The notes under the pieces: generated by a model | What the model saw: the letters and a program-made list of their open reading frames with translations, nothing else | The model's database searches: none | What the model was told of the DNA's origin: nothing | Position numbers and translations under genes: made by a program | Part shown: positions 10,450-30,909 of the stretch, piece by piece | Layout of the letters: each line of letters starts with the position of its first letter | How positions within the stretch are numbered: the first letter of the stretch is position 1 | NCBI GenBank assembly: GCA_031291075.1 | Contig: JARLJS010000268.1 | Span: 1-38,494 of the forward strand | Origin: Nevskia sp. | Lineage (GTDB): Bacteria > Pseudomonadota > Gammaproteobacteria > Nevskiales > Nevskiaceae | Direction of reading: 5' to 3' | Length of the DNA stretch: 38,494 nucleotides

Positions 10450-10638
10450 TCAGGGACTCTCGGCCTCGACCTCGACCCCGTAATCGCTGCCGTCGTCGGC
10501 CACCCACAGCCGCACCGTCATCGGCCGGCAGCACACCGGGCAGTCCTCGGTATAAGTCTGCGAACCGGCGCTCAGGTCCAGGCTGAGCTCGATCGTCTCC
10601 CAGCAGGCCGGGCAGGTCACCTCCGCCTGCTCGATCAC
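10450..10638 (-). CDS. Small CPxCG-type cysteine-rich protein
   Basis: This 62-residue protein belongs to the CPxCG-motif cysteine-rich family, known from genomes and without a settled function. It has two Cys pairs, CPAC near residue 9 and CPVC near residue 34, able to form a zinc ribbon. They are followed by the family segment RPMTVRLWV. Typical members read CPxCG in the first knuckle; here the residue after the second Cys is Trp. The start is a GTG at 10638, overlapping the hemW stop as GTGA, so translation is probably coupled. The Glu/Asp-rich C-terminus (DDGSDYGVEVEAESP) is usual. Confidence 0.8.
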   Translation of the reverse strand: MIEQAEVTCPACWETIELSLDLSAGSQTYTEDCPVCCRPMTVRLWVADDGSDYGVEVEAESP

Positions 10639-11876
10639 AGGAACTCCCGCAGCAGTGCGTTCAGGTGGGCGCGGCCCAGGGCGCTGGCGCGCACCGCGCC
10701 GGGCTCCTCCTCGATCAGGCCCTTGGCGCGGGCACGGCGCAGCGCCGGCTCCAGCGCCGCGGCGCCCAGGCCGGTGCGCTGTTCGAAGCGGGCCAGTTCG
10801 AAGCCCCGGTTCAGCCGCAGGGCGTTCATGGCGAACTCGAACGGCAACTCGGCATCCGGTACCCGCCGCTCCTCCTGCACGGCGGCGGCGCTGCCGGCGG
10901 CCTGCAGGTAAGTGCGCGGGTGCTTGTGACGGGCGCGCCGCACGATGCCGCCGCCGCTGCGCTTGCCGTGGGCCCCGGCGCCGATGCCGAGGTAGTCGCC
11001 GAACTCCCAGTAATTGCGGTTGTGCCGGCATTCCCGGCCCGGCCGTGCGTAGGCGGAAACCTCGTACTGGGCGTAGCCGTGCTGCCCCAGCAGTGCCTGT
11101 CCCGACTGCTGCATGGTCCAGGCGGCCTCGTCGTCCGGCAGCGCCGGCGGATGTGCGGCGAATTCGGTGTTCGGCTCCAGCGTCAACTGGTAGTAGGACA
11201 GGTGTTCCGGACCCAGCCGGACAGCCTCGAGCAAGTCCGCCTCGGCCTGCGCCGGCGTCTGCTGCGGCAGGGCGAACATCAGGTCCAGGTTGATGTTGTC
11301 GAAGCCGGCGCGGCGCGCGCTGTCATAGGCGGCCACCGCCTCCTCCGGCCCGTGGATGCGGCCGAGTCGCTGCAGTTGCGCCGCGTCGAGGCTCTGCACC
11401 CCGATCGACAGGCGGTTGACCCCGGCGGCGCGGTACTCGCGGAAGTTGCCCGCGTCGGCCGTGCCGGGGTTGGCCTCCAGCGTGATCTCGATGTCCGCCG
11501 CGAAGTCCAGGCGCGCCGCCGCCGCTTCCAGCAGGCGGCCGATGGCGCGGCCGGAAAACAGGCTGGGGGTGCCGCCGCCGCAGAAGATGCTTGCGAGAGG
11601 CGGGAGGCGGATGTCGGGGGGCGGGAGGCGGGAGGCGGGAGGCGAAAAAGCCAGCTCGTAGTCGAGGTCGCGGATCAGGGCATCGACGTAGGCGTCTTCG
11701 TCCAACTCGCCGCGCGCGGCGTGCGAATTGAAGTCGCAGTACGGGCACTTACGCACGCACCAGGGAAAATGGATGTACAGGGAAAGAGGTAGCTCACCAA
11801 CGAGGCCGCTCCCGGCTTCCAAACGCCTCCCGCCTCGCGCGTCCCGCCTCCCGAAATCCGCCTCACGCAGCATCAT
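10635..11876 (-). CDS. hemW: HemW, radical SAM heme chaperone
   Basis: The 413-residue protein has the radical SAM cluster motif CVRKCPYC (Cys40, 44, 47), GGGTPS (100-105) and the HemN-like C-terminal domain. HemW binds heme and an Fe4S4 cluster and is thought to deliver heme to respiratory enzymes; it was long misnamed a coproporphyrinogen oxidase. Two regions are odd. The first 30 residues and the loop at residues 77-95 (FSPPASRLPPPDIRLPPLA) are encoded by heptanucleotide arrays and make the protein longer than usual. The start is uncertain: two adjacent ATGs (11876, 11873) lie inside the rdgB 3' end with no ribosome binding site, and a TTG at 11822 would remove most of the repeat-encoded leader. 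Confidence 0.9.
   Translation of the reverse strand: MMLREADFGRRDARGGRRLEAGSGLVGELPLSLYIHFPWCVRKCPYCDFNSHAARGELDEDAYVDALIRDLDYELAFSPPASRLPPPDIRLPPLASIFCGGGTPSLFSGRAIGRLLEAAAARLDFAADIEITLEANPGTADAGNFREYRAAGVNRLSIGVQSLDAAQLQRLGRIHGPEEAVAAYDSARRAGFDNINLDLMFALPQQTPAQAEADLLEAVRLGPEHLSYYQLTLEPNTEFAAHPPALPDDEAAWTMQQSGQALLGQHGYAQYEVSAYARPGRECRHNRNYWEFGDYLGIGAGAHGKRSGGGIVRRARHKHPRTYLQAAGSAAAVQEERRVPDAELPFEFAMNALRLNRGFELARFEQRTGLGAAALEPALRRARAKGLIEEEPGAVRASALGRAHLNALLREFL
11593..11648 (+). repeat. Heptanucleotide array inside hemW (array B)
   Basis: The plus strand runs in strict 7-base register: GAGAGGC, GGGAGGC, GGATGTC, GGGGGGC, then GGGAGGC three times. It lies within the hemW coding sequence and encodes a Pro/Leu/Arg-rich loop without breaking the frame. 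It is in inverted orientation to the array at the hemW start and shares the unusual GGATNTC variant with it. Confidence 0.85.
11820..11868 (-). repeat. Heptanucleotide array at the rdgB/hemW junction (array A)
   Basis: The minus strand reads GTGAGGC, GGATTTC, GGGAGGC, GGGACGC, GCGAGGC, GGGAGGC, then a decayed unit. The first unit contains the TGA stop codon of rdgB, and the rest encodes the atypical N-terminal leader of hemW. Confidence 0.85.
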
Positions 11877-19855: not shown

Positions 19856-19956
19856 GTGAGGAGTGAGGGGTGAGGGGACAAGAAAAAAGCGCTTGTCCCC
19901 TCACAGCCCGCGCAGCGGGCGACCTCACCCCTCACCCCTCACCCCTCACCCCTCAC
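19856..19956. repeat. Dispersed repeat element 1: heptamers, core palindrome and GNA hairpin
   Basis: In order on the plus strand: GTGAGGA, GTGAGGG, GTGAGGG (19856-19876); a 13-bp perfect inverted repeat GTGAGGGGACAAG / CTTGTCCCCTCAC (19870-19882 and 19892-19904) around AAAAAAGCG; a hairpin GCCCGC-GCA-GCGGGC (19906-19920); GACCTCAC; then four CCCTCAC heptamers. It fills the gap between two convergent genes and its right end encodes the last residues and stop of the antiporter. Confidence 0.9.
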
Positions 19957-29924: not shown

Positions 29925-30107
29925 GTGAGGTCGGGCGGCTTCGCCGCCTGTGAGGTCGCTCCCCGGCTGCGCCGGTCGCTGTGAGGAGTGAGGAGTGAGG
30001 AGTGAGGGGGAAAAGCTTGTCCCCTTTTCAGGCCCGAAGGGCCGACCTCACTCCTTATAGGGCGCGCAGCGCCCGACCTCACAGCAGCGCAAAGCGCTGC
30101 GACCTCA
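29925..30107. repeat. Dispersed repeat element 2: GTGAGGTC blocks with variable hairpins, overall palindromic
   Basis: On the plus strand: GTGAGGTC at 29925 and 29950, each followed by a small hairpin (GGCGGC-TTC-GCCGCC; CCGGC-TGC-GCCGG); three GTGAGGA and one GTGAGGG (29981-30008); a core related to that of element 1, AAAAGCTTGTCCCC; then three hairpins each followed directly by GACCTCA(C): GGCCC-GAA-GGGCC, GGGCGC-GCA-GCGCCC, GCAGCGC-AAA-GCGCTGC. The whole is a large imperfect palindrome of about 180 bases. The last unit holds the stop codon of tetR. Confidence 0.9.
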
Positions 30108-30722
30108 GGCCTGCGGCGTGGCCAGCCCGTGCGACACCATCCGCATCACGTCGTCGATGACCTGGCGATCCGGCAGCTTGCCCTGCCACAGGCACCAGTG
30201 CATGCCCAGGAAGTGACCGATCCCCATCAGGGCCCAGGCGCGCGCGTCGGTGTCGCCCGGGGCGATCTCGCCGCGCCGCACGGCTTCGCCGAGGCCTTCG
30301 CTGTAACCCTTGGCCAGCCGCTCGTAGTACTCGCGGAACACCGCTTCGTCGACGAACTGCGCTTCCTGCACGATGCGGTACAGCCCGGGGTGCTTCTGGG
30401 TGAATTCCAGGAACGCCTGCAGGCTCTGGCGTTCCGCCTCGAGCCGGTCGGCGGCGTCGGTGGCGGCCCCGGCCATCTGCTTGCGCAGCTTGCGGCCGAT
30501 CTCGCGCACCAGCGTGATGAAGATTTCTTCCTTGCTGTGGAAGTAGAGGTAAAACGTACCCTGGCCGACACCGGCACGGGTGGTGATAGAGCTAACGGAA
30601 GCCGCGTGGAAGCCCTTGCCGCCGAACTCCTCCTCCGCGGCGGCGAGCAGCTTGCGGCGCGTGGCCTCGCCGCGCGCCGTCACCGGCACCAGCTCTTTGA
30701 GTACCTGGGCGTTCGGCATCAT
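30105..30722 (-). CDS. TetR-family transcriptional regulator
   Basis: The 205-residue protein has an N-terminal helix-turn-helix (about residues 20-65) with EEFGGKGFHAASVSSITTRAGVGQGTFYLYFHSKEEIF, of which ITTRAGVGQGTFYLYF is the classic TetR pattern, and a ligand-binding C-terminal domain. I chose the ATG pair at 30722/30719 behind AGGAG; a longer frame reaching 30869 adds a stretch without TetR character. The regulated genes are not known: candidates are the adjacent ydfG-pirin genes, the patatin gene, or itself. The stop TGA lies in the last GACCTCA unit of repeat element 2. The 187 bases upstream hold an AT-rich promoter-like stretch but no clear operator. Confidence 0.88.
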   Translation of the reverse strand: MMPNAQVLKELVPVTARGEATRRKLLAAAEEEFGGKGFHAASVSSITTRAGVGQGTFYLYFHSKEEIFITLVREIGRKLRKQMAGAATDAADRLEAERQSLQAFLEFTQKHPGLYRIVQEAQFVDEAVFREYYERLAKGYSEGLGEAVRRGEIAPGDTDARAWALMGIGHFLGMHWCLWQGKLPDRQVIDDVMRMVSHGLATPQA

Positions 30723-30909
30723 GGCCGGGCCGACTCCTGATTTTTTCTCGGAAAGCACGAGTCTGAGCTTAATTGATGGATACCCTGAAGTGGCGGCCAT
30801 GGTGCGCGCCGGCCGAGACGGCACGCGGCTTTTCCGATACACGGTGGTTCCCGGCGGAATATCGGTCAAGCCCGGTTGACGTCCGGGCCAGCTGCCGGCC
30901 GCGGCGCGG

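Follow-up and report, generated by a model that had tools for sequence, protein, structure and literature searches.

Positions 29925-30107 of the window (the whole stretch of DNA analysed here, 38,494 nucleotides from Nevskia sp.) hold one copy of a palindromic repeat whose grammar is common to dozens of sites in two genera, most copies lying at gene ends. Judging from sequence comparison, we would class it as a hairpin-bearing variant of the inverted heptad-repeat, REP-like elements. We give roughly an even chance to the fuller reading that it is a dispersed, non-coding and non-autonomous palindromic element of the inverted heptad-repeat class, and that this variant of the class has acquired exchangeable hairpin modules. 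The copy at 29925-30107 (element A) and a second copy in the window (element B) are built as follows.

29925-30107, no strand: whole element A, a palindromic heptad/hairpin element (inverted repeat; predicted folds)
29925-29932, plus strand: outer block GTGAGGTC of the left arm (block enrichment)
29934-29948, plus strand: hairpin GGCGGC-TTC-GCCGCC (letters; predicted fold)
29950-29957, plus strand: block GTGAGGTC (block enrichment)
29958-29979, plus strand: longer hairpin GC-TCC-CCGGC-TGC-GCCGG-TC-GC with an internal loop, GA/GGA on the other strand (letters, module pattern)
29981-30008, plus strand: four GTGAGGR heptads (letters, tandem-repeat result)
30005-30029, no strand: central palindrome around GGGGAAAAGC/TTGTCCCC (inverted-repeat result)
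30031-30043, minus strand: right-arm hairpin GGCCC-GAA-GGGCC (letters)
30044-30051, minus strand: block, GACCTCAC on the plus strand (block enrichment)
30060-30074, minus strand: hairpin GGGCGC-GCA-GCGCCC (letters)
30075-30082, minus strand: block, GACCTCAC on the plus strand (block enrichment)
30084-30100, minus strand: hairpin GCAGCGC-AAA-GCGCTGC (letters)
30101-30107, minus strand: terminal block TGAGGTC, whose TGA is the stop codon of a TetR-type gene at 30105-30869 (letters, Pfam)
19856-19956, no strand: element B, with heptads, a core hairpin GGGGACAAG..CTTGTCCCC, a hairpin module at 19906-19928 and four heptads

The original prediction had described five perfect hairpins at this place, each beside a constant block, and its account of the letters is accurate. 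The stems have 6, 5, 5, 6 and 7 bp, the loops in the orientation hairpin-GACCTCAC are GAA, GCA, GAA, GCA and AAA, and the spacers between hairpin and block measure 1, 5, 0, 0 and 0 nt; the sixth hairpin it had listed, at 19906-19920 in element B, is likewise present with loop GCA and spacer 0. The 5-nt spacer is filled by an outer GC stem of 2 bp together with one side of the TCC/TC internal loop. Unnoticed in that account, the block itself is part of a heptad series (GTGAGGA, 3.9 units at 29981-30007), and element A in its entirety forms an inverted repeat around a central palindrome; a 13-nt inverted repeat was found in this copy. Predicted folds are strong, with z-scores of -7.1 (DNA) and -7.7 (RNA) for element A and -7.2 for element B.

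Both elements also reach into the genes beside them. The last block of element A, again unremarked in the original prediction, supplies the stop TGA (30105-30107, minus strand) of the TetR-type gene, and we take the terminal block to coincide with the native stop at this site because the TetR homologue in the relative G003 stops at the corresponding TGA. A Na/H exchanger-type gene stops within element B (stop at 19939-19941). Since GTGAGGR heptads repeat at a 7-nt spacing, they place TGA in all three frames. The Pfam matches beside element A are adh_short and TetR_N, and Rfam gave no match at gathering score in the window. A HemN-like radical SAM gene (10635-11876, minus strand) has in its open frame, at 11595-11853, a third inverted heptad array, whose units are of a different type (GGGAGGC/GAGAGGC); the left array is read in frame within the Radical_SAM domain match.

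Within the window GACCTCAC occurs 5 times against 1.12 expected, a count reached in 0 of 100 shuffles, and in the window's own genome (G000, 5.65 Mb) 266 times against 133 for the reversed pattern. No element was present at ten other GACCTCAC sites (L121-L130), so the 8-mer alone is not diagnostic. A module pattern blind to the hairpin, GTGAGGTCG-N8..24-GTGAGG, gave 85 matches in G000 versus 0 in the reversed control; six of the 85 count an overlapping match a second time, and two, on contig C259, look like coding sequence. With a cluster defined by at least four GTGAGG/CCTCAC hexamers, a non-exhaustive search found 43 element clusters, far more than the two copies that would have told against a family of hairpins beside the block. 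One of them (L072 2241) is half an element, split by an insert of ~365 bp, and a degenerate last block, such as that of the window copy, leads to underestimated cluster ends. Split elements were considered as autonomous ancestors, and by eye neither this insert nor an expanded arm (L082) held anything recognisable. Separately, poly-C/G runs at contig ends of G000 (L062:2580-2677, L063:2690-2770) resemble assembly artefacts.

The grammar, derived from 34 stretches around module matches, consists of inverted heptad arms, modules and a central palindrome, and a composite element spans ~80-190 bp. The left arm is a series of GTGAGGA/GTGAGGG heptads, variable in number between elements, and the right arm is its mirror image. 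In places the heptad purine is swapped for TC-hairpin-T, giving the module GTGAGG(T/G)C-hairpin-T and hence GTGAGGTC-hairpin-T-GTGAGG. As a rule the centre reads GRGACAAGC-loop-GCTTGTCYC, where the palindrome GACAAGC..GCTTGTC encloses a loop that varies. In the predicted folds arm pairs with arm, and the hairpins form side branches around the central hairpin; an element of the second genus reaches a z-score of -13.1, and all four folds computed lie between -7.1 and -13.1. What had been proposed as a new REP-like family is thus repeated, extragenic and hairpin-bearing with a constant block, as claimed, while the idea of a simple REP gives way to a module of a heptad-armed palindrome. Copies in G000 are not homogeneous with terminal inverted repeats as MITEs would be: the best of 903 pairs reaches an identity of 0.88 over the whole element and the median is 0.64. 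There are no near-identical copies, and recent copying is therefore not seen.

Hairpins next to the block are far more frequent than chance provides, as the original prediction required. A perfect stem of at least 5 bp is found in 62 of 94 modules of G000 (mean of 1.9 and maximum of 6 in 200 shuffles) and in 28 of 53 modules of the second genus (shuffled mean 0.8, maximum 3), and the 94 modules contain 73 distinct inner sequences. Covariation was scored in the 29 distinct modules of the commonest length. Here 87.9% of cells pair, 28 cells are changed on both sides versus 12.4 in shuffles (0 of 500 shuffles), and the covariation score of 0.42 drops to at most 0.14 when the partner is slid by 1-3 columns. 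Two of five measures are not above shuffles (double-change pairs, 4 vs 3.6; further pair types, 6 vs 6.1), and kinship may inflate these scores, because related sequences can score above shuffles even when no structure is present. Stems do change on both sides while pairing is kept; the step from there to selection on structure, which had been taken as indicated, is not secure because replication template switching can both create perfect stems and mend them, according to the available text of PMC8794818.

The strand on which the hairpins fold leaves a trace of its own. The predicted GNA-loop signature holds up: loops read TNC on the block strand, hence GNA on the other, in 25 of the 29 distinct modules, and a C-G pair closes the loop in 27. 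Mismatches are likewise biased on the block strand, with 19 pyrimidine-pyrimidine, 0 purine-purine and 8 other cases among 17 distinct imperfect stems of G000, and 18, 2 and 5 among 11 of the second genus, after exclusion of imperfect stems that had under four pairs or whose innermost pair was open. Pyrimidine-pyrimidine on the block strand means purine-purine on the GNA strand, often as tandem G-A (GCGAGC-GNA-GCGAGC). d(GCGNAGC) hairpins are known for their unusual stability, as are tandem sheared G-A pairs. The bias points to the hairpin-GACCTCAC strand as the one that would fold. The independent events are fewer than these counts, since 8 of the 17 stems of G000 are of the GCTCGC type, and the asymmetry may rest on few ancestral hairpins.

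Gene ends are the preferred address. By codon-usage gene calls made in this analysis, 36 of the 43 clusters in G000 lie between co-directional genes, 5 between convergent and 1 between divergent ones, and 1 is uncalled on one side; the other adjacent gene pairs at the same loci are 84 tandem, 12 convergent and 12 divergent. All clusters except the divergent one (42 of 43) face at least one gene 3' end. The end of the element lies within -20 to +12 bp for 35 of the 47 gene 3' ends that face one, and 15 of the 47 have the TGA within the terminal GTGAGG as their stop codon. The stop codons facing elements are TGA in 38 cases, TAA in 6 and TAG in 3, and the 38 gene starts that face an element do so at a median distance of 25.5 bp.

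The distribution of the element is narrow and patchy. In a collection described as 84,980 species, which may leave out the window's own genome, the strict module pattern gave 13 stretches in three assemblies (matched by coordinates): Nevskiaceae GW715_bin.28 (G036, the second genus), MOSS_genome_mining.1, labelled Verrucomicrobia (G001), and Salinisphaeraceae CPC72 (G052). Modules with block GTGAGGKC occur in 4 of 85 genomes of the order (33 in G000, 38 in G036, 2 in G001 and 1 in G052), and the GTGAGGNC pattern occurs in 1 of 369 genomes sampled from the class, namely G000. Triple GTGAGGR heptads were present in 6 of the 85 genomes; of the stretches inspected, those in G008, G019, G030 and G062 had no hairpin module and that in G001 had one. 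A phage or plasmid origin was dropped, as viral contigs had no match to the strict module pattern and plasmids none to the window element. As a side observation, in L108 of G001 a GTAG-type REP pair is inserted within the core of a GTGAGG element.

In G036 the design is fixed. All ten elements inspected (L110-L119), a subset given that other contigs of this genome hold further modules, consist of three hairpins, a core and three hairpins. Outer hairpins measure 15-18 nt, middle ones 18-24 and inner ones 13-21; automatic parsing recovered 59 of the 60, and L110, where one had been missed, was reassigned by eye. Two of these elements, L115 and L117, lie at different sites on different contigs. 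Their arms (outer plus middle hairpin) are identical crosswise at 64/65 and 64/66 positions, against 56/66 and 56/65 for same-side arms, whereas the core segment matches at 91/107 positions (85%) in the same orientation vs 75/107 reversed. The flanks agree at 181-192 of 300 positions in a gapped alignment, which was taken as background without a control. The simplest reading of these sequences would be dispersal of the element followed by inversion of the core segment.

At matching sites in relatives the element is mostly missing. The site between the TetR and SDR genes lacks it in all ten relatives compared; by eye, G003 and G007 have a terminator-like hairpin there and G001 has a GTAG REP pair. 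Eight more sites were compared in four genomes; of the 32 site-genome pairs, 21 yielded both flanks, and the GTGAGG element was absent from 20 of these, the sole exception being the L072 site in G001. In some of these niches the inverted array present differs in repeat sequence from species to species, as the following three sites show. The secD-secF gap is empty in G003 and G007 (~27-28 bp) and holds GAGAGGC heptads in G011 and, by coordinates, in G001. Beside a Peptidase_M17 gene (L079) there is no array in G007 or G011, GTGATTA-like heptads stand in G001, and CGCAAAGC octads in G003. At the gap-pgk site G011 has inverted CGGGAAT heptads, G003 related units and G007 a terminator-like hairpin. 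The remaining pairs had other sequence or no array.

GAGAGGC-type arrays are frequent in G001 and G011, with 67 and 36 overlapping matches, and scarce in G000, with 6. Among the matches listed by a scan for inverted tandem arrays at 76 loci of relatives, periods 5 and 6 account for 71 and 104, coding-like in character, periods 7 and 8 for 7 each (one of either period looks coding) and period 9 for 0; these figures give no rate, because the loci were picked for matching element sites and periods 5-6 are noisy. Inverted octad arrays of CGCAAAGG/CGCAAAGC with CTCGCGCAAAG ends were seen in G003 and G001 (L145:3732-3850, L204:1650-1760, L211:940-1040) and look like an 8-nt analogue of the heptad elements. 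In G003, at the site matching L097, a CGTCATTCCCGCG..CGGGAATGACG palindrome pair (L212) occupies the same kind of gap. Quadruplex-type G tracts were looked at in the letters as well: GTGAGGG runs give GGGG and GTGAGGA runs only GG, and the arrays found at one site, GTGATTA-like and CGCAAAGC, do not fit a quadruplex as unifying cause.

These comparisons bear on whether the element has moved at all. Heptad microsatellites could grow in place by slippage, with template switching at replication forks making the arms and the perfect hairpins, and the variable heptad numbers and the 7- and 8-mer arrays with a different repeat that relatives have at some of these sites would suit such a process, as would the creation of perfect stems by switching in what is available of PMC8794818. 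We nevertheless hold an immobile origin to be unlikely: the same blocks, module grammar and core recur at 43 sites and one element pair is common to two contigs (L115/L117), which together call for copying, and plain switching is not expected to yield a strand-biased loop orientation and mismatch type.

If elements were copied, a mobiliser is called for, and the original prediction had named a Y1-type transposase encoded elsewhere, with the block as guide. Such a REPIN-like element, moved in trans by a RAYT/Y1 enzyme that reads block and hairpin on single-stranded DNA, would agree with the order of block then hairpin, the inverted pairs and the GNA-loop hairpins, and Y1 matches are present in all four module-bearing genomes (G000, G001, G036 and G052). 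PF01797 has four matches in G000, three of them over cut-off, and all four sit between GTAGG..CCTAC repeats, that is, GTAG-type REPs; the Y1 matches of G001 (one) and G036 (one, below cut-off) do so too. The full module is absent from all 12 Y1 loci of five genomes, where genes with the same block at their ends had been looked for. Near the Y1 gene of G001 a lone GACCTCAC follows a decayed-looking hairpin (L186:2022), an ambiguous remnant that would favour the RAYT account, and near that of G036 there is GTGAGGGC with no hairpin (L187:2262); an estimate from the reversed-pattern density expects ~1 chance GACCTCAC across the 12 loci. The strict module pattern has no hit in G007, a genome with 3 Y1 matches. 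PMC3116915, as far as its available text goes, found RAYTs next to the REP that belongs to them in the genomes it examined. Since the Y1 matches lie between GTAG REPs and not beside the GTGAGG(T/G)C block, mobilisation by RAYTs is not supported; on these sequences the hypothesis appears weakened, and we rate it quite unlikely. In L060 a Y1/RAYT gene with GTAG REPs lies between two ~60-bp copies of the preceding gene's end (~1288-1347 and 2002-2069), as if this 3' end had been duplicated upon insertion.

We consider it improbable that selection maintains the elements site by site as domesticated bidirectional terminators or as signals for 3'-end processing: position, strong predicted folds and the terminator-like hairpins seen by eye at some of the same places in G003, G007 and G001 speak for it, but at least two sites lie between genes that are usually co-transcribed (gap-pgk and secD-secF, pairs that Pfam supports as flanking elements), no T-run was noticed by eye after the arms, and the sites are mostly not common to the species compared.

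Among known systems, the closest are the inverted GGGAATC heptads of Xanthomonas and the REPs/REPINs, as far as the available text of the sources goes. The Xanthomonas heptads (Rehm et al. 2015, PMC4692102) are inverted and intergenic, with convergent pairs in 70 and 75 cases, favour gaps between aligned ORFs, are rare between divergent ORFs, and lie within 50 bp of a stop codon or overlap it; they were studied as quadruplex-forming sequences, with their role left open. Our element shares the tandem 7-nt units in inverted pairs, the aligned-ORF gaps, the stop codons and the rarity of divergent settings (36/5/1 of 43), but its heptad sequence differs, and hairpin modules are not mentioned in the part of that paper available. 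Likewise, the TAACTGA heptads of Beggiatoaceae (PMC4679880) provide stops in three frames, and some overlap the stop codons of upstream genes, as here; unlike the GTGAGGR element they are direct repeats (one inverted case), and the available text mentions no hairpin modules.

The likeness to GTAG/CGTC REPs and REPINs, in the portions of PMC3733652 and PMC3116915 available, extends to an extragenic position mostly downstream of coding regions, a hairpin with an unpaired tag, inverted pairs, and alternative complementary stems, which in GTAG REPs define sub-families (PMC3733652). Unlike in these REPs, the tag here is GTGAGG(T/G)C, there are up to three hairpins per arm, and heptads are present. 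The element is a short extragenic palindrome in many copies, as a REP should be; a GTAG- or CGTC-type tag at the hairpin foot is missing, with GTAG-type REPs coexisting in G000, and so is a RAYT gene flanked by the same repeat. It would work like a REP/BIME and fits the inverted heptad repeats by most of the features tested, and fails on the REP tag and the RAYT gene. Literature searches on the heptad string, on GTGAGGTC and on Nevskia REPs returned only unrelated papers, and in the literature searched we found no description of heptad arms combined with variable hairpin modules.

Under the preferred reading of a dispersed, non-autonomous palindrome, past copying would have spread whole elements to new sites, probably by machinery other than the resident RAYTs, and arms would later recombine, inverting the core. 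The hairpins would diversify, aided by replication template switching, and would be screened for the ability of the GNA strand to fold stably as a single strand. As it abuts the stop codon, the element would be expected in the transcript of the upstream gene, where the predicted branched RNA may protect or process the 3' end. A role of this kind at 3' ends has been proposed for REP/BIMEs.

More tentatively, these elements could belong to a hitherto unrecognised superfamily of mobile palindromes in which lineage-specific 7- or 8-mer arms re-colonise the same gene-end sites with different repeats, the Nevskiaceae adding interchangeable hairpin cassettes in a fixed three-core-three design that would be read as single-stranded DNA by non-RAYT machinery. 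The sites compared suggest that the inverted arrangement and the position at gene ends can be retained even where the repeat sequences are not the same. To inverted heptad repeats the elements described here add strongly covarying hairpins, whose strand-biased mismatches predict which strand folds, and the three-core-three elements with an inverted core offer a handle on the spread and recombination of such repeats.
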